Shown here: one piece after another, positions 10,201 to 59,514 of the stretch
Layout: each line of letters starts with the position of its first letter
How positions within the stretch are numbered: position 1 is the stretch's first letter
Assembly (NCBI GenBank): GCA_949358305.1
Contig: OX442314.1
Span: forward strand, 64,489,369-64,553,368
Source of the DNA: Strigamia acuminata
Lineage: Eukaryota; Arthropoda; Chilopoda; Geophilomorpha; Linotaeniidae
Direction: 5' to 3'
Length of the DNA stretch: 64,000 bases
Translations under genes and position numbers: made by a program
The notes under the pieces: generated by a model
What the model was told of the DNA's origin: nothing
The model's input: the letters and a program-made list of their open reading frames with translations, nothing else
Database searches by the model: none

Positions 10201-10580
10201 AGGATGAAACACGAACTAGAGGGTAACACCGGGAAACGGATCTTTTGACTCCCAGTTCTCCAGCACATGAGTAATTCAAGTATTCCTACAGGACTCGTAA
10301 CTCTGTCACCCGTCATAACCCTAATAGGATTTCTACAGGGTTCAAGCAGGTGCATGAGACCAAACCTGTCGGCCATAGCACTACTGATATAAGGACCAGT
10401 TGCGCCGCAGTCAACCAAGGCTTTCGTCTCATGGCCATTAATGGTCACGTTAATGTAAGGTAGAGGGCAATTCCAATCCCGAACAGCAACGTGTACCGTA
10501 TCGAACACCTCGGCCTCGGGAACGCCCGAGAAAGGGTGTGGTTCTGAAGGTGAGTAATCTGCGAAGATTTCGTCATCCAA
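7212..10580 (-). CDS. pol: Gyp1 Pol: protease, RT, RNase H, integrase
   Basis: About 1120 residues, open throughout. Motifs in order: protease VDCGATG with the catalytic Asp at residue 57 (Cys replaces the usual Ser/Thr), RT with LDLTKGYYQ and FLDD (Asp 397-398), RNase H HTDASAGG (Asp 544) and ETDH, an integrase H-H-C-C zinc finger, and a catalytic triad Asp856, Asp915, Glu950. A C-terminal DLVLLRTHPLSNK segment is typical of gypsy integrases. The frame has no ATG at 10580 (TTG there) and stays open upstream into gag, in the -1 frame relative to gag, so Pol is probably made as a Gag-Pol fusion by -1 frameshifting. The last 20 residues after SPLVYTF look atypical, so the true C-terminus may be lost with the missing 3' end. 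Confidence 0.93.
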   Translation of the reverse strand: MDDEIFADYSPSEPHPFSGVPEAEVFDTVHVAVRDWNCPLPYINVTINGHETKALVDCGATGPYISSAMADRFGLMHLLEPCRNPIRVMTGDRVTSPVGILELLMCWRTGSQKIRFPVLPSSSCFILLGCNWIKGNNIVIRLPRNDWFHLDNPEETFPFDPQPYRVDLVVPVVDQWELAASIRNAGDPAEPTLTERLMSKCDLTETQKVRLSYLINEYSRTFSDTPGCHPDAEHKIPTGDSLPFKCRDRPMNPAKAEIFRQLVEDSLSKGEVEKCESSYKNPPVIVKKKCGNYRLCIDFRQLNKLTEKDVYQMPSISMILACLGGSVYFTTLDLTKGYYQIKLKPSDKCKTAFATPEGTFQFTRMPFGLCNAPSAFQRMMDEVLGEAKFKWALAFLDDIVIYSKSFDEHLIHLADVLARLEKVNLTASPSKSFVCPANWDFLGFTMTPVGYSPNGSKVQAIVEYPPSKNVKQLQRFIGMVGFYAPLLKDLNITSKPFFLLLKKDVAWSWSSECQDAFTTLKDQLANGIVLPLPDFARPFIIHTDASAGGLGAVLMQADDEEKVRPVAYASRTLQGAEANYSASELECLGVVWAVNKFKPYVEYSEFVVETDHMALKWLMSCESPSGRLARWAMKLQQENFIIKYRKGVDNKVADALSRVGLDDDLTTSETRPEEVGATMFSHTLSAAESIDLTLSLDEIRAGQLADADCAIIIKWLEAEKEDDTQLSQLSPLMLQYKTDFMLASNGVLYVNAPLKADMFLENTEYGSGLKIVVPASLYDRCLEVVHDHPLSGHGGVDVTTDRLRRSFFWPGFRRSVKEYIARCDRCQRCKPVQRKPAGLLMPVSPLVGRFERIGIDFMGPKPMTKNRNRYILVIVDYATGWFEATPLRTAKISSVVPVLMTFFHNHGCPRFIVSDNGKQFISEVYNELCREAGVTPLRTSPYHPQTNYTERVNRNIKIMLQIFTSEHDQWDRCINGINFALRTAPSATTGLSPAMLAYLRELRPFWDGRGVALDAPFDPEQPYDTVRMLVARMDVLLKAALKNKMLAKQKQKSNYDRHRSDDNFDVDDLVLLRTHPLSNKALRYSASLEERFEGPYVITKVVSPLVYTFSYRLSISTPAIRR

Positions 10581-10636
10581 ATCAGCTTCAGTTGGTGCTA
10601 AGACGGAGGCAACCTGATCGCAGGCCTCAGACGAAT

Positions 10637-12232
10637 CTAATCCTCCGCAGCCTGCTCCAGCTCGTTTTCCGACTCGGCTTTGTCTTCAGACAAGCTCTTC
10701 GTGAAAAACACTGCTTTCGCTAGTTCTTCAGTCAGATGGGCCACGCGTTCCGCAGCCTTACCAGCGAGTTTGTGTTTGATTGTGCATTGGCGCTCGAAAT
10801 GCGGTCCGCCACAATGCCAACAACCTGCGCCGGGGGGTGCAATAGCGTGATCTTTTAGGAGGTTAGACGCGGGGCGGCTTGCAGCAGCCTTCGGGGTCTC
10901 TGCCGGCTTCCCACTAAGGGTCGCTGCAGGTTTACCCGTTGGGGGCTTCAGCCAGCTCCGAGTTCTATCTCCGCTTTTTAGGTCTGTATATTTTGACTGT
11001 GTCGAGGTCTGCGGCGCATGCCAGTGTGGGATAATCACACTGCCTGGGTCACGGAACCTCTCCATCGCCAAAGCTGCTGGGGCGAAACGTGCGCAAGAGC
11101 GTTTGAGACCTAGCCAGGAGTGATCCCAGGCCAAAGTGTTCGCCGCCATGCTGCACGTCTCCTTCGTCATCGCCGCAAGGGCATAATTGATTTTATACTC
11201 ATCGGCAATCGGCACTTGCATCTGGTTGAACAGCGCGTCCAGGTCCGTCCAGATTTGCAGCGCCGTAACGTCTTTCGCCTGCTTGATGGATACTGCCTTC
11301 GCGAGCAGCTGGCTGTCCGACGGTGCAAAACGGGTCTGGAAAGCGACCTCGAATTCGTCCCACGTTTTCACCGGCATCGTCGACTGCCACCATGACAGCG
11401 CATCGCCTGAAAAGAAACGTGACAAGAACCTTCGGGCCACATAATCAAGCTGCAACTCGGCAAAGGACAGATTTGATCGTAACTGGATCAGAAAAGCCCT
11501 CGCCGCGGTGCGATCGCCCGAAAATGGGTCCATCCGGATCTGTGACACGTGCTTAGTCAGCTGCTCCACGTCCGGCAAGCCTTTCGACTTTGGGATAGTG
11601 GACTGCGTTATCAGTCTATCAGTAGGCACATCGACCCCGAGATGCATCAAAACGTCCGCGGCAAGGGGTGGAGTGGTCCACCTCCTCACCTTTTGGCCGG
11701 GCATCGCTTGCATCGATCGCGGATCGACAGGTTGGGGATCGGTTGGCGCGAACGAGTTCAATTCATCGGAAGCGGAGGCTACCGAACCAATGTCCGATTC
11801 CGCTGCCGAGTCGAGCACACTCGCGCCCCGACCCGAAGTGAATTTACACTTCATCTTGTAATATTTAGCTTCGAGGGCCTTTAACTCACTATTGTGGGTC
11901 AATAGCTCCTTCGAACGTGCATCTTTTATTGCTTCATTTTGTCTTTCGGCGTCATGAAATGCTTGACGCGCTTCGGACACCAAACGATCAGAATGTTGCG
12001 CCTCAGTACGCGCGGCGGCAGCGTCATCCAACGCCTGCTGTCGCGTCGCAAGAAGCTCCTGAAAAGCCTCAATGAGGTCGTGCTGAGAACCGAGGTCACT
12101 CGCATCAACCCCCATTACCTCGGCCAACTTCTCAGCCAAGTCAGGATTTACTTCAGGTTCCATCACAACTTTTTTTGTCAAAGATCTGGATCGGCGTTTC
12201 GGAGAGCGTGATTGAGACCGTGTCTTAACCAT
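10637..12232 (-). CDS. gag: Gyp1 Gag polyprotein
   Basis: The first ATG is at 12232; sequence upstream of it in frame starts only with a TTG. The 531-residue product opens with an Arg/Ser-rich segment (MVKTRSQSRSPKRRSRSL), followed by a long helical, Glu/Ala-rich region that may form a coiled coil. A retrotransposon gag core follows, around residues 230-370 (SWWQSTMPVKTWDEFEVAF). It ends with one zinc knuckle CWHCGGPHFERQC, spaced C-x2-C-x3-H-x4-C, one residue shorter than the usual CCHC box. It would form the particle that packages element RNA. The stop at 10637 lies inside the stretch where the pol frame is already open, consistent with frameshift expression of Pol. Confidence 0.88.
   Translation of the reverse strand: MVKTRSQSRSPKRRSRSLTKKVVMEPEVNPDLAEKLAEVMGVDASDLGSQHDLIEAFQELLATRQQALDDAAAARTEAQHSDRLVSEARQAFHDAERQNEAIKDARSKELLTHNSELKALEAKYYKMKCKFTSGRGASVLDSAAESDIGSVASASDELNSFAPTDPQPVDPRSMQAMPGQKVRRWTTPPLAADVLMHLGVDVPTDRLITQSTIPKSKGLPDVEQLTKHVSQIRMDPFSGDRTAARAFLIQLRSNLSFAELQLDYVARRFLSRFFSGDALSWWQSTMPVKTWDEFEVAFQTRFAPSDSQLLAKAVSIKQAKDVTALQIWTDLDALFNQMQVPIADEYKINYALAAMTKETCSMAANTLAWDHSWLGLKRSCARFAPAALAMERFRDPGSVIIPHWHAPQTSTQSKYTDLKSGDRTRSWLKPPTGKPAATLSGKPAETPKAAASRPASNLLKDHAIAPPGAGCWHCGGPHFERQCTIKHKLAGKAAERVAHLTEELAKAVFFTKSLSEDKAESENELEQAAED
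10664..10670 (-). promoter_or_regulatory. Possible -1 frameshift site at gag-pol overlap
   Basis: On the minus strand the heptamer is GGAAAAC, read G-GAA-AAC in the gag frame. It lies inside the short window where the pol (-1) frame is open and gag has not yet stopped. It is not a perfect X-XXY-YYZ site, and no downstream pseudoknot was modelled, so this is only the best candidate in the overlap. Confidence 0.25.
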
Positions 12233-12700
12233 GAGTGAAAAGTGAACTTTCGTTGACTCGCACTCCGCAAACCAAACCAACGTCAGATGATTAGCTGCAG
12301 CCAATCACAGTCGCCTACAACTAGGTCAACTTTAGACTTTAACTAATGCTAGCAGCATCACCCTCTGAGAGCAGTGACCAGTTGATGGTTTCCTGGCGGG
12401 CCTTGGGCAATCCCAGGTCCAATCCAGAGTATTTTTAGGTTATCCGGACAAAAGATCTCAACCCGGGGAACAAAAGGTGCCATAAAAGTCATCCTGTTCT
12501 CCCAGTTGCAAAATCTTTGCCTCTTCATAAAATTTAAATTACAATAGTGATAAAGTAGGGGTTGCAGATTTTGAAACTCAATCCCTATCAATAAAACCAT
12601 TGCCTTAGAGGTGCGCCTGCTCCTCTTTTTGCACCGCAATCTGTTCTAAATCTATAAAAATGTAGAGAAACTGGAAAATGCATTAAATTTTGGTTCATCT

Positions 12701-20312: not shown

Positions 20313-23300
20313 TTATTTAAAAGAAAGAAAGTAAGCAGTGAAAATATCTAGTGTGTTAGCAGTATAATTTTCGACATGCTTGTCGATGATTCCGACATCT
20401 TGTAGGGTTAAGAAATTATTTTGCGCAAAGTACCAGTGGCGAAGTTCAACAACGTTATATGGTTGTGTTTTTCTGCCATTTTGGTCCATTAGAATAACAG
20501 TGTTGGGGCCCACCAATTTGTGAATGATATAGATCCCTTCAGTTCTTTGGCGTAAACCTGCAGCAAACTGTTTGTCGGCGGAAGAAGGTTGCCGATTGCG
20601 CAAAGTTACCCAGTCGCCAGGGCGAAAATCGTGTGCGCGGCGCTTTAAATCAAACCACTTCTTGTGGCGGATCTGGGATTCGCGCAAATTGTTCATCGCC
20701 CTTTCTCGCATGGTGCGCATTTGCTCATGAAGGTTTTCAGCCTCAGATGGTGGTAAGGGTTCCCCGTCATCTGTGTCACTATCAATATCACCAGGGAATC
20801 TGGCTTCTTGGCCTGTAACTAACTTAAATGGAGAATACTTTAACGAAATTTGGTACGCCGAATTGATTGCCAAAACAAAATAACCGATATTCACATCCCA
20901 CCTGTTGTGGTCGTCTATGTAGGCTAAAATGCAGTTCTTTAAGGATTGGTTCAAGCGTTCGGCAATATTGCCTTGGGGGTGGTATGCTGCAGTGTAACGA
21001 TTTACTGCGCCTAATTGCTGGATTTGGCTGCGAAACTCAGGTGACCGGAAAGCGGGGGCATTGTCGCTGATAATGATTTTGGGGAAACCCCAGCGTTTCG
21101 TAAATTTCTGAATTTGCGCAACTGAAGTTGCGATGGTGGAATCTTCCGTTAGTCTTACGTCTAACCAACGACTTGCTGAGTCGACCATTACGAAGGCGTA
21201 GCAATGGCCGCCCACTGAACGTGGTTTTTTACTGTAGTAATCAATGTATATTGCAGAGAACAAGTGGCGCGCTCTCGACATTATCATTTTGCCATAAGGC
21301 AAGCGATTTAATGGTTTCGCGCGCTGGCAAGCCTCGCAAACCTGGATCCATGTTTGGACATCTTCTCTCATTTTGGGCCAATATACACGCGTCTTTAAAC
21401 GATGGAGGGTTTTTTCTCTTCCCATGTGTCCCACTACTGGAGGGTAATGCATTGCGCGGAAATATCGTTCGCGCAACTCCAAAGGGAGATAAATTTGACG
21501 CCTTTTGCGTATTTCATTAATGTGGACTGGTGGAAATCGACATAATATATCTTTATGCATACCAAAATTTTGCGCGCCTTTTTGAATTTGCGCAGCCTCG
21601 ACTGGATCGACTGGCAGCATTTGAGCAGTTAAGTAGTATATCAACTCACGCGACCACGGATCTTGTCTCTGTGCGGCGTCTGGAAGCATTTCAAAGGGTG
21701 GATGTTCAATAAGTGGATCGTGTTCCAATTCAGCCTGTTGTTTCGCTTCGGTGAGCCTTCTGTCTGATTCTGTAAATGTTCGTTCAGGTCTCGGGCGCAG
21801 TCTTGTCGGAGTTCGAGGCATTCCACCTCTCGGTACTGGATACTCCACCGGCGAAGGAAAATCCCGAATCGGGCTAAAACTGTCTGTGTCGGATGACGAC
21901 ATGTCGGAGTCCGGCTCGGAAGGGTATCCATCGGGGCGTTGGTGTCCAGAAGGCCCTGGTCCGGGGTCAAACACTGGTGGCACAGTCGGTGCTGTATCAG
22001 TTGTCGTTGACGGCGAAGACGCAGGAGAGGTTGGAGGAATAGGAGATTGCGATATTGGAATGGATTGTGTGGGAGAAGGTGTAGGAAAATTGGGAATTTG
22101 GATAGGAGTTGATTTTGGTGTAGGTTTTGGTCGTGGTGGCAAGATATGAGAGGGGATTCCAGTCGACCTTCGGGGTCGTCCTTTAGGTCTAGGAATTGGT
22201 GGAGTTGGTATTTTGGAAATAGGAATTGGTGTGGAAATGGGTTTTTTACGAGGAGGCAAAATATGAGAAGGGATCCCAGATGACTTTCTGGGTGGTCCTT
22301 TCGGGGGTGGAGTAGGGAGAGTTGGTGCTAAAGGGATAGGAGTAGGAATGGGCAGAGGAACAGGACTAGGAGGTGTCGTGGGAATGGGTGAAACCACTAA
22401 ATGAGGCGTTTTTGGTGTCCTTTTACCTTTTCCAACTCTCTGTGCTTTTAATAATTTTGGTTGTTTCCATTTCTTTATATTAGCTCCATATCTCGGTAGT
22501 TTTGGAGATATTTTCGGAACTAAAGTGGGATCTCTTAATCTAGCCCGAGTTCTTGTCGCGATAGCACGTTTGGCGCGAGGGGAGAGCACTGGAATTATCA
22601 TAATTTTACGTGGTCGTCCTCTTTTCTTCGTCAATATCGGAATCAACGAATGTTGTCTGCGCGCACGAAGTGGCACTGAAACACGAACTGGTGGAGAATT
22701 GGGTGAAATTACTGGTAATGTAACTGGAGTTGTTTGTTGAGTTGGTTGCGCAACTGGAGTTGACGCAGCTGTTGAAGTGGGTTGCGCAATTTGAGTTGGC
22801 GCATTTGATGGTGTCGAAGTCCCCGTAATTCGACGAGGAATGAGGGATTTTCTTTTTCCTTTCTTTGGTTTAGTTGGAGAAATGGCTGAAATTAAAGTTG
22901 ATCTAATGAATTTATCTTTGAACATTTTCTTAAATTGTCTATTAATGTCTTTTGGCAACTCAGTAATTATGGATAATGCTGGCCACTGATTACAGTCATC
23001 GAAGTATGCTGTGTAGCAGGCTTCGTCGACAAGTGGGCTGTCATCTTCCTCGTCATATTCGGGTGGATCGACTGGTGCTCTGCTTAACGCGTCCGCCACT
23101 CGATTCTTGCATCCTGAGCAGTGCAGGAAAGTGAATTTGTACTCGCTTAATGAGAGTACCCAACGAGCAAGCCGGCCAGTTGGTTCTCTTTGTTGAAATA
23201 ACCACTTCAAAGAACGATGATCACTCTCTAAATAAAATGGCATCATTTCTAAATAAGCGCGGAAACGTTTCACCGCCCACACGGCTGCTAGGCACTCAAT

Positions 23301-25907
23301 TTCAGTCACATTATAGTTTTTCTCAGCACTGTTAAGTGCACGAGAAGCGAAAGCTATTGGTATCCTTTCCCCTGCGTCATTTAATTGCATTAAAGCCGAC
23401 CCCAAACCGGAGTAGCTTGCATCTGTTTGAAGGATGAATGGCTTTTTCCAGCTGGGAAAACGTCTCATTAGCGTTGGAGTCGCTATTTGATCTTTAAGAT
23501 AATCAAAAGCTTCTTGTTGCGCTTCGTTCCAATGCCAAACGGCATCTTTCTTTAGTAATGGTCGAAAAACCTCACTAGTCTTGGAAAAGTTCGCAATAAA
23601 AGATTGGTAATAACCCACCATACCTTTGAAACGTTGTAACTCGCGCAAATTTGTTGGCGCAGGATAATTTTGGATAGCTGACACTTTTTTTGGGTTTGGA
23701 GAAATTTGACCGGATTCCACGATGTGGCCCAAAACTTCGAGGCGCTGTTGACAGAGCTCGGTCTTGTTGGCGTTCATGGTGAAGCCGGCGTCAAATAATT
23801 CTTCCAAGACGAGGCGCAAATGTTGAACATGCTCCTCAAATGTTTTGCTAAAAATAATAACATCATCAATGTATACAAATACGAATTTATATAAATATTT
23901 GGCCAAAGTCTTATTCATCGCTCTTTGGAGTGTTGCAGGACCGTTGATGGGGCCAAAAGGCATACGAACGTATTCAAATAGTCCTCGGTGTGTTATGAAG
24001 GCCAAGAATCGCTCATCTCTCTTGCGCACTCCAATTTGGTGAAAGGCCTCGCGCCCGTCGATTATCGAGAACCAATGTGCACCACCTAAATACGCAAATA
24101 TATTGTCTATGTCCGGAAGTGGATACACATCCGGAATTGTTTGCGCATTAATGGGTCTGAAGTCCATTGCTGTCCTCCATTCCCCGGTCTTCTTGGGCAC
24201 GACCACTGGGGCGACGGCGCAATCACTTTGTGAACGGCGAATTATACCTTGTTGAAGTTTTTTGTTGATGTATTTGTCGATAATTGCCTTTTTCGCGGGG
24301 TTTACGGGTCGTACTGGGACATGAATCGGACGAAAATCCGGTTTCAGATTAACTTCATATTCCGTATTATTACATAAACCTATTTCCTCACGGAAAATCT
24401 GTGAAATTGGCTGCAAAGTTTCAATTAGTAATTTGATTTGCGTAACAGTCAAATGGTTCCATAGCTGGTGGTAAATCCAATCGAGATCGGTCGGATCCTC
24501 ACTGGGCCGGTACTGCAAAAAGTTGATGTTATAGGCAATTGAATTTGAGTCATTCTCACCATTGCTGAGTTGCGCAAACGCTTTGGCGTCGGTGTTGTTG
24601 ATTAACTTCTTTTTGTCGTTAATATCCTTGGCTCGTTGCGCAATCAATTGTTTGGCGATGGGACGAATAATGTTCAATTTATGACGAAGGCGGCGCAATC
24701 GACGGAATTTGCTTAAAGTTAACTTACGAGAGATTGTCTTTTTTACTTTACTCGAAGTCCTCGAAGTTTCCTTTCGTTTCGGCAACCAAACATTCGACCA
24801 CGTTGTTCGACTGCGATGCCTAATTGTTTTCACTTGTCGTTGTGAGTCGTCGTTTGGATACTCAAAAACCTCATTTTTTAATGGTTGGTGTAACAGCAGC
24901 ACACAGTTAATGTCACTGGGTGGCGCAGGCTTCTTGAGTATTTTATTTGGAACAATCTCACTTATTTTAGCTGGTGGAGTTGCTGATTTATCCAGTTCCT
25001 CCGGTGCCATTGGTAATACGAGGATTGACTCGGATTTTTTGGCGTCTTCGTAGGTCACGAATTTACGAATTTTGTCTGAGCCAGCCAAGCTCCACTGGCT
25101 CCTTCCATGATCGATGGTTGCTCCGACTGCTTGGTTAAAGTCTCGTCCGAGGATCAAGTCATTTTTGGCATCAGGCAGCACCAAGCATACAAACTTTACC
25201 ACTCCTAATGGCGCTCGCAACGCAAGCGTCACCGATTTTGAAGCAGTAACTACGTGTCCGGATGCGACCTGTACCTGTTCATGTAAATTAATAAATTCGA
25301 GTCCCATCTTTTCGTGAAGTTGTTGAAATAATTCTTCGCTCATGATACAAGTTTGAGCACCTGAATCTAAAAGCGCGGTAAACGATACATTTGCCCAAGA
25401 TATTTTTACGCATGGAGCTTCTCTGCGCAATCTATCGGCGCGTGTTATCTCAATAATCGGTTCTTGAGATTCTTTAAGTTCTTCCGATGTCAACATGACA
25501 AAAGATACCTTCATTGGAGCGATCACTTCCTTGGGCGCTTCCGCTGAATTGACACTGGAAGTAGTCTTGATAATGGGAATTTTAAAGTTTTTACTCACAT
25601 TCTTGGTGATTTGTTTCTGTGCAGTCGCAGCTTGCAAGGCTGTCGACTTCGAAACAGGTCCAGATACTAGTTGGAAAGCCACAGGTTGCAAAACTGAAGT
25701 TTTCCTTTGATTCGTCATTGTCGGTGATGAAGATGGGGGTGTGGTTGACACAACACTTATTCCTGGTTTAGACTCACAAGGAGTAATAGAAGAAGTGGTT
25801 GTTGTTGGAATAATCCTATCGGAAATGTTCTCGTCAAGGGTGATGTCGGGTGGAGCACGTCTTGTTGATTCCACACGTTTTACGCTTGTGGAGACCGGTT
25901 GGTTCAT
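20313..25907 (-). CDS. pol: Gyp2 Pol with AT-hook proline-rich linker
   Basis: 1864 residues, unusually long and fully open. The ATG at 25907 overlaps the gag stop (ATGA). In order: a disordered Thr/Ser-rich N-terminus, protease LLDSGAQT (Asp181), RT with FSIIDGREAFHQ and YIDD (Asp681-682), RNase H QTDASYSG (Asp829) and ESDH, then about 430 residues of Pro/Ser/Thr/Lys-rich linker (roughly 1000-1430). The linker holds AT-hook cores KKRGRPRK (about 1094-1101) and KGRPRRS (about 1242-1248), plus a degenerate KGPPRKS (about 1203-1209). The last two lie in a duplicated block sharing GIPSHILPPR. Next are the integrase zinc finger (H..H..C..C around 1485-1525) and the triad Asp1556, Asp1615, Glu1650, then a GDWVTLRNRQ C-terminal segment. 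The linker could tether integrase to AT-rich DNA. That role is inference. Confidence 0.93.
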   Translation of the reverse strand: MNQPVSTSVKRVESTRRAPPDITLDENISDRIIPTTTTSSITPCESKPGISVVSTTPPSSSPTMTNQRKTSVLQPVAFQLVSGPVSKSTALQAATAQKQITKNVSKNFKIPIIKTTSSVNSAEAPKEVIAPMKVSFVMLTSEELKESQEPIIEITRADRLRREAPCVKISWANVSFTALLDSGAQTCIMSEELFQQLHEKMGLEFINLHEQVQVASGHVVTASKSVTLALRAPLGVVKFVCLVLPDAKNDLILGRDFNQAVGATIDHGRSQWSLAGSDKIRKFVTYEDAKKSESILVLPMAPEELDKSATPPAKISEIVPNKILKKPAPPSDINCVLLLHQPLKNEVFEYPNDDSQRQVKTIRHRSRTTWSNVWLPKRKETSRTSSKVKKTISRKLTLSKFRRLRRLRHKLNIIRPIAKQLIAQRAKDINDKKKLINNTDAKAFAQLSNGENDSNSIAYNINFLQYRPSEDPTDLDWIYHQLWNHLTVTQIKLLIETLQPISQIFREEIGLCNNTEYEVNLKPDFRPIHVPVRPVNPAKKAIIDKYINKKLQQGIIRRSQSDCAVAPVVVPKKTGEWRTAMDFRPINAQTIPDVYPLPDIDNIFAYLGGAHWFSIIDGREAFHQIGVRKRDERFLAFITHRGLFEYVRMPFGPINGPATLQRAMNKTLAKYLYKFVFVYIDDVIIFSKTFEEHVQHLRLVLEELFDAGFTMNANKTELCQQRLEVLGHIVESGQISPNPKKVSAIQNYPAPTNLRELQRFKGMVGYYQSFIANFSKTSEVFRPLLKKDAVWHWNEAQQEAFDYLKDQIATPTLMRRFPSWKKPFILQTDASYSGLGSALMQLNDAGERIPIAFASRALNSAEKNYNVTEIECLAAVWAVKRFRAYLEMMPFYLESDHRSLKWLFQQREPTGRLARWVLSLSEYKFTFLHCSGCKNRVADALSRAPVDPPEYDEEDDSPLVDEACYTAYFDDCNQWPALSIITELPKDINRQFKKMFKDKFIRSTLISAISPTKPKKGKRKSLIPRRITGTSTPSNAPTQIAQPTSTAASTPVAQPTQQTTPVTLPVISPNSPPVRVSVPLRARRQHSLIPILTKKRGRPRKIMIIPVLSPRAKRAIATRTRARLRDPTLVPKISPKLPRYGANIKKWKQPKLLKAQRVGKGKRTPKTPHLVVSPIPTTPPSPVPLPIPTPIPLAPTLPTPPPKGPPRKSSGIPSHILPPRKKPISTPIPISKIPTPPIPRPKGRPRRSTGIPSHILPPRPKPTPKSTPIQIPNFPTPSPTQSIPISQSPIPPTSPASSPSTTTDTAPTVPPVFDPGPGPSGHQRPDGYPSEPDSDMSSSDTDSFSPIRDFPSPVEYPVPRGGMPRTPTRLRPRPERTFTESDRRLTEAKQQAELEHDPLIEHPPFEMLPDAAQRQDPWSRELIYYLTAQMLPVDPVEAAQIQKGAQNFGMHKDILCRFPPVHINEIRKRRQIYLPLELRERYFRAMHYPPVVGHMGREKTLHRLKTRVYWPKMREDVQTWIQVCEACQRAKPLNRLPYGKMIMSRARHLFSAIYIDYYSKKPRSVGGHCYAFVMVDSASRWLDVRLTEDSTIATSVAQIQKFTKRWGFPKIIISDNAPAFRSPEFRSQIQQLGAVNRYTAAYHPQGNIAERLNQSLKNCILAYIDDHNRWDVNIGYFVLAINSAYQISLKYSPFKLVTGQEARFPGDIDSDTDDGEPLPPSEAENLHEQMRTMRERAMNNLRESQIRHKKWFDLKRRAHDFRPGDWVTLRNRQPSSADKQFAAGLRQRTEGIYIIHKLVGPNTVILMDQNGRKTQPYNVVELRHWYFAQNNFLTLQDVGIIDKHVENYTANTLDIFTAYFLSFK
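25904..25907 (-). promoter_or_regulatory. ATGA stop-start overlap between Gyp2 gag and pol
   Basis: The gag frame ends in TGA (25906-25904), which overlaps the pol ATG (25907-25905) by two bases; pol is in the -1 frame. Such overlaps are used for termination-reinitiation in some other RNA-borne genes. In gypsy elements Pol is more often made by frameshifting, so either route is possible here. Confidence 0.6.
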
Positions 25908-26382
25908 TTGCGGCCTGGCTCCGCCGGTCGCAAGAACTTCAGGCCGTCGGAGTTTTCCTGCCTCTCAAAAACTTTGTAGCATACAGGGCAAATAGGGCGC
26001 CAAGTTGCGTTTTCAATCATAAACCACCAATCTTTTTTTGTTTTGCGCCAAGCTGCCCCTTTTTCGGGAAACTTGACACTTGTTGGAGGTTTTGGTGATG
26101 GCGCAAATGTAACAACTGAGGTAGAACAGACATGGTCCTTTGGGAGATCTGCGGGGGGCGCAATTGTGGTTGAATTCACTGAAATGTTCACCTTTTGCGC
26201 AGCTCCGGCGACAGAACTCTTTTTGGTATCCACTTCCGGTTCCGACTCACTGCTGCTACTTGAATTTGGTTCCTGTGGCGGCGGAGGTTGCTCGGGTCGG
26301 GCTTCCAGCGCAACTAGTTCTAACATAAGTTGTTGTTTACGATAACGCGTAAAACGTCTGGCGTCGTTGGACGTGGAGGTTT

Positions 26383-26866
26383 TGACGATGATAAGTGAAG
26401 TTGTCAACGCCGGGAAATAAACTGGAGACGAAACGAAAGTCATTTTGTGCCTGAAAACCGCACAAACGCGTCGGCCATCTTTATTCAGGCAAGAACAGGT
26501 GAGCAAGTGAATATGTACAGGTGTCGAGGCTATTTGCCCTCGATCTAAAAGTAGAACAAATCATCCTGATGGAAAGGTTGATTTGTTCTTTACATAACCA
26601 AAGTAAAGATAACTCAAAGCCAGCATTAACACTGGATAATGCACTGGGGGAAATAATAGATAAACTAAATCATAGCAGACGACAACTCGAAATCCATTGA
26701 TAAACATGAGCCAACTGTAGTATTTAACACGCATTGCGACAGTCAGATGCAGTTGGCTCTCGATTCCAGTACAGTAAACAATGCGACCCGAATTTCGCCT
26801 TTAACGCACTTAGCCAGAAAAGGTGCGCCGTTAATACGTGAAATGAAAAACTGCTTTGACCCAACA
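26383..26866 (-). repeat. CopA 3' LTR, 484 bp
   Basis: Bounded by TG/CA and matched base for base, as far as I could read, by 31415-31898. It contains a stem-loop-like pair (acaaatcatcc ... ggttgatttgt) around 26554-26585. The same type of structure recurs in the CopB LTR and at 34705-34738. Confidence 0.95.
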
Positions 26867-26880
26867 GAACCCCCTCTAAA
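26867..26880 (-). other. CopA polypurine tract
   Basis: On the minus strand tttagagggggttc lies directly before the TGTTGGG start of the 3' LTR. This is the position and composition expected for the plus-strand primer of an LTR element. Confidence 0.8.
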
Positions 26881-26892
26881 CAGTTATCCATT

Positions 26893-29800
26893 TCAATCAA
26901 AAATGTGATCGCATAATGCGTCAAGACGTGGGCGGGAAACCCACTTGGTCATAATGTCTGCGATGTTCAGCGCGGACTTTATTCCGATCGAAGATGTAAA
27001 TCCCCTTAACCATTTCCTTGCCCCAATCCTCATTGCTGAGACCAGTCATGGTATCTCCTAAGGTACCTTGTCTTAAGTAACAAAAACTCGCAAATGGTGG
27101 AGGAACTTGTGCCCGCGGTTTCGCTTTAAAATCGAATAACCCTGCATCATATTCGTAGTCCTCCTCCTCACACCACCTCACTACATCGATACGACTTCTA
27201 AATCGAGTGCCCGTTGGTGCAATGTAGTGAATGAAAACATGTCCGGCTTGTGCTCCGGATTTCCTAATGTATTCTACTCGTTTCCATTTCGTGATATCAA
27301 TTTGTTGTAATTCAACTCCCCCAACTGCCCCAGTATGCCTGCCCCTTACATTAGGAGACTGTGCCACTGCCTCTTCATATCTGGCATCATCGTCACTGCC
27401 TTCACTTGGAGTAGCATCTCCTGCAGTGTGAGCGACATCCTCTGGTAAATTAGGGTCTAATTGGGGTAATGGAGCAGGCTGAGACGTAGATGCCTCATCC
27501 TCTGGCTCCGTCGTCGTTGCAGGAATAGTCTGCTGCGTAGGAGGTTCAACAGTTTGTTGTGTTGTCGACACAGGGGGACTTTGAGGAACTTCCTCCTCTT
27601 CTGCTTCGGATTCGCTAATTAGATGAATATAATCATCAGATCCAAACCCCCTCTTAGCCTCAACACTTCCCAATCCTTTTGAAACTGTTTGTGTTCCCTC
27701 GTACCAATATTGATTCTCATCAATTTTCACATGTTTCGATGCAAAGACTTTGTTCTTGTGTGGGTCCCAGATCCTGTATCCAGCTGTGGTTATTGCATAA
27801 CCAATTAGGGCCCCCGACCAAGCTCTGCTGTCTAGTTTGCTTTTCCGAGTTTGCGCTGGGATGTGCACATACACTTTCGACCCAATACAGCGCAAATGTC
27901 GCACCGACATACGACGTCCGAAAAATACATTATAGGGAGTCCGTCCCTGTAAACTTGAGTGAGGGTATCTATTTTTCAAATACACAATGGTATTTGCCAA
28001 CTCAGCCCATAAAAAGTGTGGAAATCCATTTTCCAATTCCATAGCTCGCACCCCCTCTATGACGGTGCGATTCGATCGCTCCGCGACCGAATTCATCTCG
28101 GGGCTGTAGGCGTTGGTCCGTTCACACTTGATTCCGCAAGATTTAGTATAATTATCCCATTCTTTGGACACAAACTCACCCCCCCTATCTGTGCGGATCG
28201 TTTTAACCTTTCTAGAAGTCGCACGCTCGACTTCTGCTTGCCATGCTTTAAAATGGGCAAAAGTTTCACTTTTATGCTTTAGAAAACTGATCCACATATA
28301 TCTAGAGTGGTCGTCCACAATAATGAGATAATACTCAGCCCCCCCTAAGGATTTGCATGATGCGGCCCCCCAAAGATCCATATGAATTAAGTCTAAGATT
28401 CCCTTGGATTTGACCTCAGCTATTGGAGAAAAGGTTGCTCTAACCCGCTTGGCCCTATTGCACGCATCACAAGGAGAAGCCAATTCATTGCTTAATTTAA
28501 CGCCAAAAATTTCTGTGGATTTTTGCATCATCACAATGCCCTTTGAGTTTAGGTGGCCCATTCTGCCATGCCAAAAATCCATCGGTATTGCTTTATCATT
28601 GTCTAATCTCTTCCCATTAGTATTATTATTAGCCGTTAAAGCCGTTTTAATCGGTCCCATCACTGTAGGTTTAGTCTGTTTCACTCCCGTCTGATTAACC
28701 CCCTGTACCACATTACTAAACGTGCGCGCATTGTTCGCATTGCTCGCATTATTCGCTGCGCCATTTGTTGCAACAATCGTTTTCCCATTCGATTGCACAT
28801 TAGAAGTGGTTAGTTCACACTTAACTCTAGGCATGGTTAATACAGTTTGTTTTACACAATTAGTTATGCCAACTGCCTCCTTCTGCGCAGGGATGGCAGT
28901 TGCATTCACAGAGGTGACAGACACATGTCCGTTAACCTTATACAAGCGATTGCTGAGTCGTACAGCTGTTAACGATGGGTCTTCAATCTTTGCCCGAAAT
29001 AGAGTCATTTTGCCGTCTGCAACGTAAGTGCGTAAGCCAGCCTCATCAGTGCGCCCGAGAGAGATAAGATTCTTCCGAAAATTCGGAGCATAATAGACGT
29101 TGTTCAAAGTAACAACTCTACTCCTGTTGCCATATGTGGAAATTAACTCCACAGATCCAATCCCTTCTATTTTAGAGGTCCCTTCCCCTAACTGCACTGT
29201 GTAATTGAGAGGCTTAAAATTTGCAAACCACTCTTTGCAAAAGGCAAAATGGTCAGTAGCACCGGTATCCACGTACCAAGCGGTGTCTACTGGTCCATTT
29301 GACAAAAATGACGATACAGGAGGCGGTGGCTCCTCCACTTCCATGTAGAGTGAGTCCGGGTCGTCAATCCAATTGTCGACTAAGTTGGCTTTGCGCCCAC
29401 CACGTCCTCCTTTTCCACGATTTTTCCCACGTGGTTGTCCTCTAAATTGGGACGTTGGTCCAGCGTTGGGCGACTGAGGATTCTGTCCCGTTTTCTTTTG
29501 CGAGGGGCATTCTCTCGAGAAATGACCCGAACCGCCGCAATTATAACACATCACGTTAGGTGATTTGACAATTTTCCATTGCATTGCTGCGTAGTGTGCC
29601 AATGGTTGCTGCACACACGAAGCCCCCAATCCACGGTCCTCATCTCGTTCATCTCCACTTGAGAAATCTGTGTCCGATGAGGTGTCCATTAATTGGACAG
29701 GTGGGGGATGCAACCTGTCATATTCCATTAAGAATTCCTGGCGAATCCTTTCCAGATTAACGTCCTCCTGCGGCCAATCATCAATTCTCGCCTTCATAGG

Positions 29801-29998
29801 CTCGTATTCAGGCCCTACACCATCCATATACTGGAAAATGACGAAAATTGGAGTTAATTCCAGGCCTGCTGCGTTAACCTCGACTGCTTTCTGATCCACA
29901 CGGTCCAAAAACTGTCGCATTGTCTCGTTATCGTTCATTCTTAAGTCTAGAAACTGCCGTCGCAGTTGAGCTCTCTCAAATCTCGGAGCTACTGCCAT
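26893..29998 (-). pseudogene. CopA gag-pol with RT/RNase H deletion and MBD-like domain
   Basis: ATG at 29998. The gag part lacks about 110 N-terminal residues compared with CopB gag. Then follow a zinc knuckle CYNCGGSGHFSREC (151-164), protease VDTGATDH (Asp244), integrase zinc finger (WHGRMGH...CDAC) and integrase core (DLWGAA..., TDRGGEF). An MBD-like domain occupies about residues 905-956, with WKR, RKSG, HYIAPTG, RS and LFDF. Just past it, at the start of RT, the sequence jumps to the extreme C-terminus. The original end (ADIMTKW...) is present out of frame, with its stop at 26893-26895, while the open frame ends at 26921. So the whole RT and RNase H (about 1.3 kb compared with CopC) is missing and the junction is frameshifted. 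Confidence 0.88.
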
Positions 29999-31395
29999 TT
30001 TGCAGGAAATGTAGCACAAAACACAAAATTCACTAATTCGTAGCACTTTGCACACAAACAAATACACTTTCCCACCAAAATGAAGGCGAATAATATACAC
30101 TACTTCCCGGGGTACAGCTCAATAAGTGAGCACAACTAACTTGACCAGTCGCTACAAGGGCTTCCGTCCGACACACCTGGGGTCGCGGGATCGCCCCCTT
30201 GCTTCGAGCAAGCCTGGCCAAGAATAGGATGACACTACAGTCAGCGCACGGTATCTTGATGCTAAATTCGTACTGCGCATCGCATTCTGCGCAGACGATT
30301 TTCTAATTCCAGTTGTTATTTAGCAGTGTTAAGCCTATTATTAGGCCTAATAATGCTAAAATAAAGTAAATAAACAACAATAAACTCATCATTAAAAGTA
30401 ATTCACACAGTATGACCAAAATATTTGTTTTATTTTATCATTGATAGGCCTAATATTAGGCTTAATACTGCTAAATAACAACTGGAATTAGAAAATCGTC
30501 TGCGCAGAATGGGATGCGCAGTACGAATTTAGCATCAAGATACCGTGCGCTGACTGTAGGCGAATGCCTAAAGGGTGCCAAACAAACAAAAGGTCCCAAA
30601 AGCAAAAACTTAAATTTATACAAAGTAATTTCGACCCCGAAAATGCAATAAATAATACGTTGTGAAGGTGGCACGTTGTTTTCCGTTGTTGGCGGGACAA
30701 ATTCGTCGCCAAAATTCCAACGGCGATCCACCGACGACGTACGGTGCTCCAACGTTGCAAACGGGCGTGCGCGTATGCACTAACCCGCCCAGAATACGAA
30801 TTTAGCGTGTATTCTGGTTCCACCAACTTCCTGGTCTTCACTATTGCACTCGTACGTGCAAATAGTGGCTCTTGATCCCGACAATAAACGTCGTTTGCGC
30901 GTGCTCGTCTCGTACGATGCAGCGCACACGTAACTCGCTTCGAAAAATGTCCGTCCCGTTCGTTTCGCCAAAATTCCGCCTCGAAATAAATGCCTGCTTG
31001 TTCCAGACGATTCCCACGACGATAATTAGTCGCCACGTTGTGTTTTCCTTCGCTGGAAAACTCCACGACGTGAAGAAACGGCCCAAACTCTGCTTAAACT
31101 CGCATCGCACTGGGGGCCGCCATCTTGGAAATGGTCGGCAGCGAAGCTCGACGAATGGCCATTTTCGCTTGAAATGAGCCAAAAATACACGATTAATATT
31201 CGAAATAAATTCCTTACTGTTCGTAAATGTCCTTTCCAACGCCCAAACACTCGTTGGAACACAGAATCGGCGATGTGAACGTAAATACGACGTTCGCTCG
31301 TCGCGTCAAAGCGCGGATACGGTTCCGCCCAAATTGACGTGTCCGGCGTCGATTTCGTTATGAAATCCGCTGGAAAACTTCACGATTCGGCCATC
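29999..31395 (-). other. CopA leader between primer site and gag
   Basis: About 1.4 kb without a credible ORF. It resembles the CopB leader (33886-35421) in several blocks, for example around 30060-30200 versus 33990-34130, so long leaders are a shared feature of this copia group. It hosts the mariner-like MITE at 30238-30556. Confidence 0.6.
30238..30556. mobile_element. Tc1/mariner-like MITE with 113-bp inverted termini
   Basis: Both ends begin CAGTCAGCGCACGGTATCTT and pair over about 113 bp with a handful of mismatches (30238-30350 against 30444-30556). The element is flanked by TA at 30236-30237 and 30557-30558. Length is 319 bp and there is no ORF. A CAGT start and TA duplication are typical of Tc1/mariner, so it is probably moved by such a transposase supplied elsewhere. 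It lies inside CopA and so entered before or since CopA inserted into Gyp2. Confidence 0.88.
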
Positions 31396-31413
31396 AACCA
31401 TCCTCTGCTACCA
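31396..31413 (-). other. CopA primer-binding site for tRNA-iMet
   Basis: The plus strand reads aaccatcctctgctacca, the 3' end of initiator methionine tRNA including CCA. It lies one base from the 5' LTR end. Initiator tRNA priming is common in copia elements. Confidence 0.9.
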
Positions 31414-31414
31414 C

Positions 31415-31898
31415 TGACGATGATAAGTGAAGTTGTCAACGCCGGGAAATAAACTGGAGACGAAACGAAAGTCATTTTGTGCCTGAAAACCGCACAAACG
31501 CGTCGGCCATCTTTATTCAGGCAAGAACAGGTGAGCAAGTGAATATGTACAGGTGTCGAGGCTATTTGCCCTCGATCTAAAAGTAGAACAAATCATCCTG
31601 ATGGAAAGGTTGATTTGTTCTTTACATAACCAAAGTAAAGATAACTCAAAGCCAGCATTAACACTGGATAATGCACTGGGGGAAATAATAGATAAACTAA
31701 ATCATAGCAGACGACAACTCGAAATCCATTGATAAACATGAGCCAACTGTAGTATTTAACACGCATTGCGACAGTCAGATGCAGTTGGCTCTCGATTCCA
31801 GTACAGTAAACAATGCGACCCGAATTTCGCCTTTAACGCACTTAGCCAGAAAAGGTGCGCCGTTAATACGTGAAATGAAAAACTGCTTTGACCCAACA
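31415..31898 (-). repeat. CopA 5' LTR, 484 bp
   Basis: Same length and sequence as the 3' LTR. On the minus strand it starts TGTTGGG at 31898 and ends CGTCA at 31415, followed by the primer site. The GGTTT duplication follows at 31899-31903. Confidence 0.95.
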
Positions 31899-33156
31899 GG
31901 TTTTAGGTTCAGCTTCACCTCTGGACTTGTCCACGGATTTCAACACGGTGAGAGATGAGGGGTTTGCTTCTGAAAAAGGTGCAAACTGATCAACAAGACC
32001 CAAGTTTCTATACTCAGTTTTGCGGTGAGAGTCGAGCAGTAGTCGGTTGTCCACGTCGTTTCCCAGTTGAATCGCTTCGTCAATTGTTTTGACATGCATT
32101 GTTCTCAAAAGTTGGACGACGTCAGACAGTAGCATGTTCTGGGCCTTCTCCCATTGTAATCCAGGGTCTGTGTAGCCTGCAATTTCTAAATAATATATTA
32201 TTTCGCTGAGAAAAGTCATAGTGGACTCTCCACTGCGTTGCTTTCGATTTGCAATTTTCACATTGGCCGCCGCTGAATTCATGGAGAATGCTTTACGGAA
32301 CAATGCCTCGAACTCAATCCACGTTTTGGGTTTTGGTTTTAATGCGAGCCACCAACGTTGCGCCTTGTTGCGGGTTGCTTGAATTATATTTACTTTCAAA
32401 TATTCTTCCTCGGGCATGCGGGTGGAATACATGTGCGCATATAATTGCGCAAGAAACAAATTGACAGAATCAAGTGTGGCCTTCTCAGGGTCAAAATGTG
32501 GGAGTTTTTCCTTATAAGTGTTATATCCTCGGGAAGAGTCCTCTCGTCTTACCCGTATTGACGGTAGAGACAATTGGGCCCTTACTCCGGATGGGTGCCC
32601 AGTGTTGTTAATTTTGGCACATAATAAAGAATTCATCACCTGCTGATTGGCTTTTGTTGAATCCACAATTTGTGATGCCACAGACGGACATTGAGTAAAA
32701 GTAGTGGCATGCGTCATTACCGGTGGCGTCGTTGTTGTAGACGTCGGTTGCGCATTGATGGTGGTGGGCGCAAATTGTTGCTGGTGGCTTGCTCCTCCAC
32801 AATGAGGAACTTCCGTGGAAAGTTCATTTCCTGATGGTGCCGAATTGCCTTTTACCCTTATGGATCCATGAGAGGACCCACCATCCTCTGACGGAGGCGT
32901 CGTTGGATGTGGAGGGCTAGTGCCTTGTTGGTAAATGCTACGCATTTCTTTGAGTAATCCCTGTGCCTGAACGAGAAACTGATTACGAATATCACACATC
33001 AACAAAGCTTCGGAATGTAAAATTGCCGGATTCATTGATATTCCTGACACGCCAGGAGTGAAGAAAGCTGGAGGCACGAGCTGATACGCTGGTGTTGACG
33101 TGGCAACTGTCGTTGGCGCAGAAATATTTACGCCAGGTATTGGAGCCGACATGTTG

Positions 33157-35886: not shown

Positions 35887-38800
35887 TTGGGCATTTTTCT
35901 AACAATGCTCCCCTTCAATGGACAGGAAACTGAGTTAGAATCGAATTGGGAGTTGGCAATGAATCAACTTGCAAATACGCTGAAAAGAATAGATGCAAAT
36001 GAGGACTATAAAAAACGTTACGACGACTCAATGTGGCAATACATTGAGGAAAATCACGCGGAGGAAGTCCCAAAGGAGGAACGTTTTCTCAAGAAGGGGA
36101 TATATAATATACTTCACCACCCAGTCATAAAAGAGGATCGGGATACTTCTAAATTTAGAATAGTGTTCAACGCGTCTTCATCCAAGAAGGGAAAACGTTC
36201 CCTCAATGACTGTTTATTTCCGGAACCTTCCCTCAACCCTGACTTAATTCTTGTTATTGTGAGATTTCGTTTCTATTGCATCCCCATAATAGCAGATATT
36301 AAACAAGCATTCCTGCAGGTTATGATCAACCCAACTCAAAGAAACTTTTTACGCTTTCTGTGGGTGGCTCGTGATTATTTTAAACAGCCTTATTCGTGGC
36401 AAAACCTATGGAACCACATTATGATCCTGAGGATGATCGTCGTGCCCTTTGGTGTTATTTCCTCACCATTCCTCCTATGCGCAACCATTCGAAAACATGC
36501 AAAACAATTCGAGAAAACACACCAAAGAAGTTGATGCGCTAGATGATGGAATTTTCATGGATGACTTAACATCTGGAGGAGATTTTCCAGCCGACACGAC
36601 GACACATTGCGAGAGATTAAAAATGATTTTAGACAGCGGAAAACTTCCCCTTGTGAAGTGGGCAACTTGCAGTAAAGACGTCTTCGACAACTTGAAGAAA
36701 GAGGGATTCCACATGCGGGGCGAAGAGTTTTCTAGTCTTGGAATCATTAAAATGCTTGGCATACTTTGGGACACAAAAAAGGACATGATAATGTTTAAAA
36801 TACCGAAAATTGAAAAAATTCCGATTACGAAGCGAGAAGTTGTCTCATTTTTAGCATCAATTTTCGACCCCATGAAACTCTTGGCTCCTGTGATTCTTCA
36901 AATGAAATTGCTCATTCAAGCGATCTGGGCTCGGACGAAAAAATGGGATGAAAAGATTCTTGACTCGGAGAAAAAAGAAATTGAAGAATGGAATTCCGAC
37001 ATCCAACAACTCAAGGAACTAAAAGTTCAACGTTGGTTAAATACTTATTCAGGTCGAGACATAACCCTAGAAGTTTTTTGTGACGCCAGCACAAAAGCAT
37101 TTGGCTGCACGATTTTTGTCGTCAACGTGGAGGGCAAAAGAACATTGTTGTTAAGTAAATGCCGTATTGCGCCAGCCAAAAAAGTAACTCTTCATCGACT
37201 CGAATTAACAGCAGCAGTGGTTGGAGTCAGAATGACAAAATATCTGCTCGAGAACTTTCTTCCTGGATACCCTGTCACTGAAGTTCGTTACTACTCGGAC
37301 TCCACTATCACACTCGCCTGGATTAATTCTGACAAAAACGTGTGGAAGCCTTATGTCTCGAACCGTGTTCAGGAAATTAGTTCCTTTTCCAAGCCTGAGC
37401 AATGGTCTCATGTGCCAACCGAATTCAACCCAGCTGACCTATTGACCCGTCCACACAACTCAAAAACATTGATGAACAATAAACTTTGGTGGGACGGAGT
37501 TGATGTATCAAAGCTGGAAAAGAAAGAAATTCTACAGGAAAACCCACCCGATGAAGAGAGAAAAATAATTGTTATGACTATTCAAGTTAAAGAGAACTTT
37601 GTCTACAAATTTTTCCGACGTTTTAGCAACTACAACCGACTTTTGAGAGTGTTTTCCTACATAATGAGATGGAAAAGTCAACTTGTTCGCGGTGAGCCCC
37701 TCTCGCCACTCGAGTTGGAGGCAAACCAATTGAAGATCCTAAAACTTTCGCAGAAATTACATTTTTTGGAGGAAGTTGAGGATGTGAAAAACAAAAGGGA
37801 ATTAAGCAAACATTCCACTTTAAGGAATTTCGAGCTCTTTATTGACGAAAACGGATTACTTAGACTTCATAGCCGTTTGAAAAAATCTTTGTTGACATTT
37901 GATGAAGTCTATCCAATTATTTTACATTACGATAGTTGGATAACCCGATTGTTGATTAGAAAAGCACATCTAGAATTACTTCACGGTGATATTAGTGAAA
38001 CCCTGTATCACTTACGTGAACAATTTTGGATCATAAGAGGAAGGAAAACAATTCAGACAGTGATTCGAGAATGTGCAATTTGCAGACGTGCTAAACTTGT
38101 GAGAAATAACCCTTCTACTGGTGACCTTCCCACTGAACGTGTAACTCCAGCGGCTCCATTCCAACACACTGGAATTGATCATCTTGGACCCATTTACGTT
38201 GGCAACAACAAAAAAGAACGGAAAAAGGTTTATATTCTTTTATTCACGTGCATGGTGACAAGAAGCCTGCACTTAGAAGTGTCCGAAGATCTTTCTGTTC
38301 CCAAGTTTTTGCTAGCAATGCGACGATTTGGAGCTCGTTTTGGCAATCCTGCCAAAATATTCTCGGATAATAGCAAAACATTTGAACGCGGTAGTGTGGA
38401 GTTACAATCATGGGGCAAGCTCATTGGTCACAAGGACATACAGACTTTCCTATCTGAAAAAAGAGTGTTATGGACTTTTATTCTACCACTGTCCCCCTGG
38501 ATGGGAGGGGCATGGGAACGCCTTGTCCGTTCAGTTAAGGATAAACTTCGAAAAACTTTGCTTCGATATATTGTTGATTTGGAAACTCTTCAAACCTTAG
38601 CTTTGGAAATTAGTTCCGTATTAAATTCCCGACCTTTATCCTACGTTCCCGACAGTGTACATGGAGGCAGAATTTTGGCGCCTGAAAATTTTTTAACCGG
38701 TGGTTTACCAAAATACCTTATAAACAAAAAATTGAGTGCCATCAAAAAGACAGATTTAAGAAAATTAGACATTAAACGCAGACAGTTCATTTGGGAATTT

Positions 38801-39064
38801 TGGAGAGTGTGGAGAAAAAGTTACCTTATGCAATTGCGAAATTTTTACGAGACCAAAGGCGATAAAAATTTCAAAAACCCCAAAGTGAATCAGATCGTGT
38901 TGTTAGAAAAAATAGGAACAAATTTTTATTTTTGGCCACTTGCCAGGATAAAGGAAATTTTTCCCGGTGAGGATGGTTTTACCCGAGTCATTAAAGTAGT
39001 GCTACCCGATGGACGTGAACTGAAAAGATCAGTTAAGCATGTGAGAGCTCTTGAACTGGACTGA
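35887..39064 (+). pseudogene. pol: Bel3: 5'-truncated BEL/Pao pol
   Basis: Only the pol part survives, starting at MLPFNGQETELESNWE (BEL RT N-terminus) and ending with the conserved tail RSVKHVRALELD at 39064. Gag and protease are missing, cut by the CopB LTR. The RT fingers and palm (VFNASSSKKGKRSLNDC, IADIKQAFLQ, VPFGVISSPF) are present here, unlike in Bel1 and Bel4. A frameshift at about 36520 separates them from the FMDDLTSGG motif. After that one ORF runs through RNase H (VFCDAS), the Pao-type middle region, the integrase zinc finger (HLELLHGD...CAICRR), the integrase core (IDHLGP, FSDNSK, GGAWERL) and the DUF5641-like C-terminus. It is the best copy in the window for seeing what Bel1 and Bel4 lack. 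Confidence 0.9.
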
Positions 39065-46978: not shown

Positions 46979-47051
46979 AATTGTCAAGCCAGTGTTTATT
47001 TGTTCTTTCCAAATTTCAAAGTCGAATTTTTTGAGAGAGAGGACAGAGAAA

Positions 47052-56950: not shown

Positions 56951-57496
56951 TGTTGATGTGTAAAACATCATTTGATCTGATATGGATCCTATTCTATTAA
57001 TTTATTAATATGTTTCTAGTTATATATTCTCGTATTATTGTTTTACAATGTTTATATCGATTAGTTATATCGTTATTCCATATTTCCTTTAATCCGTGCT
57101 TGAATGCACGATGCTATGTTCTTTTAGTTGTGTTTGACATTAAGCACGTTGCAGTTGCTATCTGTTTGTGCTTATAGTGTATTATTCCGCCACTAGTTGG
57201 CGTTACTGTTGTATTCTGTTATCCAAGATGGCGACGGCCATGACTTTCAGCCAGCCTCTTGTTTTTCATGCAATTATGGACTCCTACGTGAGTATTTTCG
57301 TTGATATTAAATTTATTTTATGCTTTTAAGCATTCAGTGTTCTTTGTTACGGCATATAAGTGCTTTGCACGGCCGTTTTTGGTCTGAATTATCGGTCTGG
57401 TTAATTCCGATAATCGTAGCCGCCATTTGCGATTTGACCACTCGTTTTTCCTTAGTTTGCACGATAATTCGTGCCAGTTTTTCGTCCTCTGCTACA
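56951..57496 (+). repeat. CopC 3' LTR
   Basis: It starts TGTTGATGTG after a G-rich polypurine tract and ends CTCTGCTACA where Bel2 pol resumes. No second copy exists in the window, so the borders rest on TG/CA, the tract and the BEL junction. Like CopA, its LTR starts TGTTG. Confidence 0.7.
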
Positions 57497-59208: not shown

Positions 59209-59514
59209 TGATAGGTTTGTAGGCGCCGGAGATCAATGAAAAGGAGCTGACACTCGATTTAAAAGGTGCGGGAACTTGCATTATGCGACCGCCATCTTTA
59301 TTCATTCGTGATGAGAGAGAGAACATAAAAGCACACCTCTTTCGAGGCTACAAAGCTTAAAGTAGAATGAATCATTGTTAACAAGCAAAGATTCATTCTT
59401 TACATAACAAAGGCAAAACAACGGCATAAATAATCGATAATGTAAACAAAGGCCATGAGAAACTAAAAGATAAGCGCTCATATTAGAGCAGACGACATAT
59501 GGGCATGTCATTGC
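59209..59514 (-). repeat. CopB-family LTR, interrupted by Bel4
   Basis: The 306 bp match 35442-35745 closely (TGATAGGTTTGTAGGCGCCG start). On the minus strand this is the end of an LTR, so it is the 3' LTR of a minus-strand copia or a solo LTR, inserted in Bel2 integrase. The Bel4 LTR begins at 59515; the remainder would lie beyond the right edge of the window. Confidence 0.85.

Follow-up and report, generated by a model that had tools for sequence, protein, structure and literature searches.

Readers of histone marks, the chromodomains, are known from retrotransposon targeting. Chromoviruses carry a chromodomain at the C-terminus of the integrase (IN), some groups of them having lost the reader residues (PMC3605345), and the C-terminus of the Ty5 IN is described as binding Sir4 and targeting silent chromatin (PMC5911963); Ty3/gypsy or DIRS elements have captured epigenetic enzymes, namely a cytosine methyltransferase or an AlkB-like demethylase (PMC6338049, PMC9289625), and for plant copia elements PMC9289625 reports no gain of a domain. 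Here we describe CopA, a Ty1/copia element in a 64,000-nucleotide stretch of the genome of the centipede Strigamia acuminata (contig OX442314.1, positions 64,489,369 to 64,553,368; the whole stretch is referred to below as the window), which encodes a methyl-CpG-binding domain (MBD) after its IN, together with relatives in which the MBD lies between IN and reverse transcriptase (RT); we refer to such elements as MBD-copia.

MBD-copia resembles the chromoviruses in that a chromatin reader located beyond the integrase core defines a clade, and in that reader residues are lost in some groups (PMC3605345). The chromoviruses are, however, Ty3/gypsy elements with a reader of histone methylation, whereas MBD-copia elements are of the copia type, with IN before RT, and carry a fold of the kind that reads DNA methylation; a chromodomain is not among the Pfam matches of CopA, and a copia-type RVT_2 domain follows the MBD in its relatives, so CopA is not a chromovirus. 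Ty5 is, like MBD-copia, a copia element, and the C-terminus of its IN sets the target, but it relies on contact with Sir4, and a folded DNA-reading domain, like the one proposed for MBD-copia, is not described for Ty5 in the portions of PMC5911963 consulted. The methyltransferase- and AlkB-bearing retrotransposons carry enzymes, whereas MBD-copia carries a reader. MBD1, MBD2, MBD3, MBD4 and MeCP2 share with the CopA MBD its profile, its fold and the two CpG-contacting arginines, but unlike CopA they are host nuclear proteins. No report of a copia element with an MBD was found among the titles and abstract beginnings listed, in partly capped lists, by searches of the open-licence literature, and words beginning with 'methyl' are absent from the main texts of PMC3587641 and PMC8556966, both on animal long terminal repeat (LTR) elements; annotation pipelines can pick up this arrangement, though it may be undescribed, because databases already tag some of the proteins with PF01429.

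Judged by its profile and predicted model, the CopA domain is a true MBD. Scanned within the full open reading frame (ORF) it matches PF01429 with E=2.9e-9 and 36.9 bits, against a curated cut-off of 21, and the 59-aa MBD piece gives an E-value of 5.6e-11, the scores of the two scans ranging from 36.9 to 42.4 bits. Its nearest PDB sequence by phmmer is MBD1 (1.7e-7), followed by MBD2 (6.2e-7). The predicted model, which is of moderate confidence, has the MBD fold of a beta-sheet followed by a helix, and the top 43 Foldseek rows obtained with it are all MBD/TAM domains; both CpG-contacting arginines are present. The first-pass annotation, made from the letters alone, had proposed an MBD-like domain and had set the PF01429 profile and a structure prediction as checks beforehand, both as refuting tests, and both agree with the proposal. 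The residues that it quoted (WKRVEYIRKSGAQAGHVFIH, YIAPTG, FRS and LFDF) are encoded at 27116-27286 on the minus strand, within the ORF at 26921-30100; its nucleotide coordinates were right to within about 15 bases, and its residue numbers, 905-956, are 939-995 in the listed ORF because a different start was used.

A match arising by chance or from composition is ruled out by the profile scores and by control searches with a hidden Markov model (HMM): when the 120 database proteins described below were shuffled or reversed, the best E-value was 0.31-2.5 across five rounds. An assembly artefact or a host MBD gene is likewise ruled out, because eight copies whose MBD pieces are identical lie at separate sites, two of these copies being inserted in one gypsy family. 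A genome search with the MBD piece gave 1335 candidates, of which the best 150 were scored and all 150 match; of 1092 candidates obtained with PF01429, the best 150 are all above the cut-off, the last of them resembling a host exon. The MBD copy number in the genome is thus at least 150, a lower bound because scoring covered only the best 150 candidates of each search.

The position of the domain had been given as between IN and RT, and this holds in the RT-bearing relatives but not in the window copy, in which RT is absent downstream of the MBD. The MBD stands directly before RVT_2 in all six RT-bearing host copies scanned with Pfam from about the MBD onward (L009, L011, L012, L014, L016 and L020), with MBD E-values of 3.3e-11 to 2.6e-7 and RVT_2 E-values of 1.2e-50 or better; the frame is single and open in four and split in L014 and L020. 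The same arrangement, sought elsewhere, recurs in other host families and in spider and environmental proteins. L001-L008, the eight copies that share an identical MBD piece (L002 is the window copy), all have an open frame through the MBD, the stop codon after it at a common position, and the 3' LTR end at the same distance, so there is no room for RT in any of them. Because the order is SH3-like domain, linker, MBD and RT, and because the RT-less copies keep both IN and MBD, the MBD would belong to the integrase tail rather than to RT after proteolysis.

The window copy is thus a non-autonomous copia derivative. Its LTR has 40 genome matches, including the two in the window, which form 15 same-strand pairs; ten of these, the window pair included, span 5.1-5.5 kb, four exceed 10 kb, and L016 spans 6.5 kb. 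L016 has an open frame in which RT follows the MBD, its MBD is 80% identical to that of the window copy, and its LTRs match the window LTR at 100% (rounded). Since its LTRs match those of this RT-bearing relative, the RT-less form has probably moved in trans.

A protein search with the MBD and RT part of L009 returned 565 matches, of which the best 120 were examined; 19 of these are already annotated with PF01429, and rve, SH3_retrovirus and RVT_2 are listed together in the database relatives. A model built from host copies found 37 MBD carriers among the 120 in its first round, before any relative had joined the model; further rounds raised the number to 47, of which 46 have E<1e-3 and three are partial. 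Of 102 additional proteins from a second search, which judging by their names are mostly from plants or algae, four have an MBD. Carriers with a species name are the spiders Araneus ventricosus and Stegodyphus mimosarum, and the others come mostly from short environmental contigs; a scan of viral contigs gave no relative, and a search with CopA residues 900-1059, a query that lacks RT, gave 198 candidates of which none scored. Animal copia clades are named GalEa, Hydra, CoDpu, Copia, 1731, Mtanga, Tricopia and Humnum in PMC3587641.

Phylogenetic comparison of the RT domains separates the MBD carriers from the other elements. In a tree of 81 rows, the 55 with an MBD (three of them partial) are split from the other 26 by one branch with support of 100/99, which is present in 100% of 200 bootstrap trees. 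This final tree was pruned of P0139, P0160 and the MBD-bearing P0039 (long branches), of P0010 and P0017 (fragments beginning near RT), of P0034 (near-identical to P0035) and of P0122 (an MBD-less gene model that is a near-copy of the MBD-bearing P0121), and a length cut on the RT match removed rows including P0053, P0054 and P0113. The exceptions in larger, earlier trees were the fragments P0010, P0017 and P0113, which start near RT, and P0122; the MBD label changes twice on the tree when P0122 is included, and seven times in the first tree, where fragments and partial rows were counted apart. For the trees, 29 MBD-negative proteins were chosen from 162, sampling was by likeness to MBD and RT queries, and the root is unproven. 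The simplest account of these sequences would be a single gain of the MBD, long ago, in a copia clade.

The MBD is under purifying selection similar to that on RT. In the pair L009/L010 the proportion of synonymous differences (pS) is 0.49 and that of nonsynonymous differences (pN) 0.056 in the MBD, and the corresponding values in RT are 0.76 and 0.101; between host families pS is mostly saturated and MBD pN is 0.02-0.29. Over 21 pairs, MBD pN slightly exceeds RT pN in 16 (the excess being about 0.055 at most), equals it in one and falls below it in four, L009/L010 and L009/L020 being among the last. The suggestion that the MBD is a functionless passenger, a host exon captured by accident, is extremely improbable and we reject it, because MBD pN is low against a high pS, as in RT; the domain is also retained in spider and host elements alike, and none of our results speaks for a passenger.

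Recognition of CpG by an MBD is described as depending on two arginines, an aspartate that orients the first of them, and a tyrosine that gives methyl selectivity, and a change of this tyrosine to phenylalanine in MBD3 strongly reduces that selectivity (PMC4176167, PMC9520026). We mapped these positions onto the copia MBDs ourselves, through phmmer alignments to PDB MBDs. In an alignment of 14 host copies, 12 of them distinct (A1), both arginines are present in 14, the aspartate in eight and the tyrosine in none; in the window copy the aspartate is replaced by phenylalanine and the tyrosine by histidine, so that it lacks both residues, whereas MBD3 has only the single Tyr-to-Phe change (PMC9520026). 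Among 42 complete database MBDs (39 distinct), all four residues are kept in 28 (25 of the 39), a twenty-ninth has phenylalanine for tyrosine with the other three kept, and the losses affect the second arginine in 11, the first in two, and aspartate and tyrosine together in eight. By inspection, the complete set also occurs in the deeper host families L040, L042/L043 and L045. An environmental sub-clade (P0004, P0006, P0008, P0009, P0012, P0024, P0025 and P0026) lacks the aspartate and tyrosine and, except in P0009, the second arginine, with the W, Y/F and F.F positions kept; its MBD is degenerate or repurposed. With phenylalanine and histidine in place of the aspartate and tyrosine, methyl-selective reading by the window copy is unlikely, and we would expect its subfamily to bind CpG or DNA in general with little methyl preference. 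Members of the clade with the canonical residues fit the idea of methyl-guided integration better than the window copy does.

Methylation of CpG is sparse in arthropods. The host genome has a DNMT1 at L032 (E 4e-58, confirmed by a PDB match), a DNMT2 and an SRA domain, as well as a match to ADD_DNMT3 over 43 positions that may instead come from another ADD protein, and an exon of MBD2/3 type with 81% identity to human MBD2 across 32 aa. There are four separate DNMT1-like loci, L032-L035, with L033, L034 and L035 recognized by inspection. The 3' flanks of the eight copies L001-L008 have a mean observed/expected CpG ratio of 1.26 and are not CpG-depleted, a weak test made without a random background; at 16 other host loci the ratio is 0.8-1.79. 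Nothing here indicates that the window subfamily inserts into CpG-depleted DNA. In the longest flanking ORFs of the eight copies, Pfam gave a sub-threshold gag match (at L007), a sub-threshold DUF, and no match in six. Elsewhere in the assembly, TTAGG telomere repeats, which point to an arthropod, occur at one of ten contig ends examined.

CopA as a whole occupies 26383-31898 on the minus strand, as defined by its LTR ends and domains, and has the LTRs, target-site duplication and priming sites of a Ty1/copia element. Its 484-bp 3' LTR (26383-26866, minus; TGTTGGG...CGTCA, the TG..CA form) is an exact match to the 5' LTR (31415-31898, minus), and because the two are identical the insertion is recent. 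A 5-bp target-site duplication, GGTTT, lies at 26378-26382 on the left and 31899-31903 on the right, and inspection also reveals a primer-binding site, TGGTAGCAGAGGATGG (31398-31413, minus), which we take to resemble the complement of the initiator tRNA-Met 3' end, and a polypurine tract, AGAGGGGGTTC (26867-26877, minus), adjoining the 3' LTR. The minus-strand ORF (1059 aa, listed start GTG) has the order gag, protease, IN and MBD: the C-terminal half of the Retrotran_gag_2 profile (29714-29977, E=6.7e-7), a CCHC zinc knuckle (29501-29548, E=6.8e-7), the Pol beta-barrel domain PF22936 (29036-29278, E=8.8e-20; protease region DTGATDH by inspection), GAG-pre-integrase PF13976 (28448-28597; 27.9 bits, slightly below the curated cut-off of 28.4), the integrase catalytic core rve (28100-28390, E=6.3e-12), the integrase C-terminal SH3-like domain PF25597 (27704-27922, E=5.3e-25) and the MBD. 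The frame ends 64 residues beyond the MBD, and a Pfam scan of it found the protease-IN order and no RVT_2. In the leader, an inverted repeat with 138-nt arms 49 nt apart and 94% complementary (30235-30559) may be a nested sequence like a miniature inverted-repeat transposable element, and may explain some of the variation in length between RT-less copies (about 5.2 against 5.5 kb); an Rfam scan of 26300-32000 gave no match.

CopA is inserted in a gypsy element, of which the pol frame (20313-25907, minus) has matches to the models of protease, RVT_1, RNase H and integrase; inspection shows an extended proline-rich segment between the RNase H and integrase regions. L007, another copy of the CopA family, is inserted the other way round in a member of this gypsy family, at a point about 208 bp from that of CopA, and the flank of L007 carries the CopA insertion site uninterrupted, as a natural empty site. 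LTR elements are dense in the window: Pfam recognizes gypsy-type and several BEL/Pao polyproteins, with further polyprotein frames at 7212-12304 and 60763-63978 (minus) and at 36449-39064, 46992-51359 and 57427-59211 (plus). A second MBD, from another copia lineage, lies at 54951-55112 on the plus strand; it was found with our own HMM (i-E 3e-14), was not reported by Pfam's MBD model at E 0.001, and keeps the R, D, Y and R residues by inspection, and RVT_2 lies downstream (55272-55988, plus; 2.8e-56). The frame that encodes it (53526-56702, plus) is an in-frame chimera, with about 460 residues resembling a BEL/Pao gag and protease (by inspection) joined to a copia MBD and RT. Its left part has 30 further matches and its right part nine, and it is probably a unique recombination because the join occurs in one of 40 matches (the best 40 of 85 candidates), that in the window itself.

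Taking as established the identity, position and conservation of the domain, the grouping in the RT tree and a partial methylation toolkit in the host, we propose, with a probability of roughly 0.58, that this clade acquired an MBD once and keeps it under selection as a module of the integrase tail, tuned by lineage, through which the integration complex is tethered to CpG DNA. A Ty1/copia clade, represented in S. acuminata and spiders, would have gained the MBD between the integrase SH3-like domain and RT, most simply once, and the domain would act as a C-terminal DNA- or chromatin-binding module of integrase, analogous to the chromodomains. Members with the Arg-Asp-Tyr-Arg set would target methyl-CpG, and the window subfamily would bind CpG DNA with scant methyl selectivity, much as MBD3; the recent, RT-less window copy, which retains IN and MBD, would be carried in trans. 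DNA binding by the copia MBD, with an influence on the choice of site, is thus predicted from its sequence and by analogy. The recurrence of an MBD next to integrase suggests that marks on DNA or chromatin are read when the element selects an insertion site, and a role in guiding integration to methylated or specific chromatin, raised in the first-pass annotation, is plausible because of the position of the MBD and the precedents of Ty5 and the chromoviruses.

It is possible to imagine stricter and looser versions of this function. If the MBD steered integration to methylated CpG throughout the clade, the window copy included, one could account for the complete residue set in 28 of 42 database MBDs, in L040, L042/L043, L045 and the second window copy, and for the DNMT1-type and ADD_DNMT3 matches in the host; we nonetheless consider this unlikely, as the window subfamily has phenylalanine and histidine at the aspartate and tyrosine positions, no copy in A1 has the tyrosine, and the flanks of the eight copies show no CpG depletion. 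We find it similarly doubtful that the MBD is a protein or nucleic-acid interaction module unconnected with site choice, serving in NuRD-like recruitment or in packaging or holding the element's own cDNA or RNA. Lineages that lack the CpG contacts yet keep the hydrophobic W...Y...F.F pattern would be accommodated by such a role, but both guanine-contacting arginines are invariant in the aligned host copies and the position of the MBD suits an integrase tail. A broader form of the tethering proposal, in which an old and widespread animal clade picks its insertion sites through a captured methylation reader, and lineages have been retuned from methyl-selective to methylation-blind as the methylation of their hosts changed, is more tentative, and we would not favor it at present, although we rate it above either of these two.

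An integrase-linked reader of DNA methylation is unreported in the titles and abstract beginnings listed by searches of the open-licence literature, and if this broader form of the proposal is true, MBD-copia would be the DNA-methylation counterpart of the chromoviruses. The family provides a defined and selected group of MBDs that lies outside host genes and varies naturally at the putative methyl-reading residues, and its members may serve as natural probes of where the sparse methylation of arthropods is located and of how transposons adapt to its change or loss.
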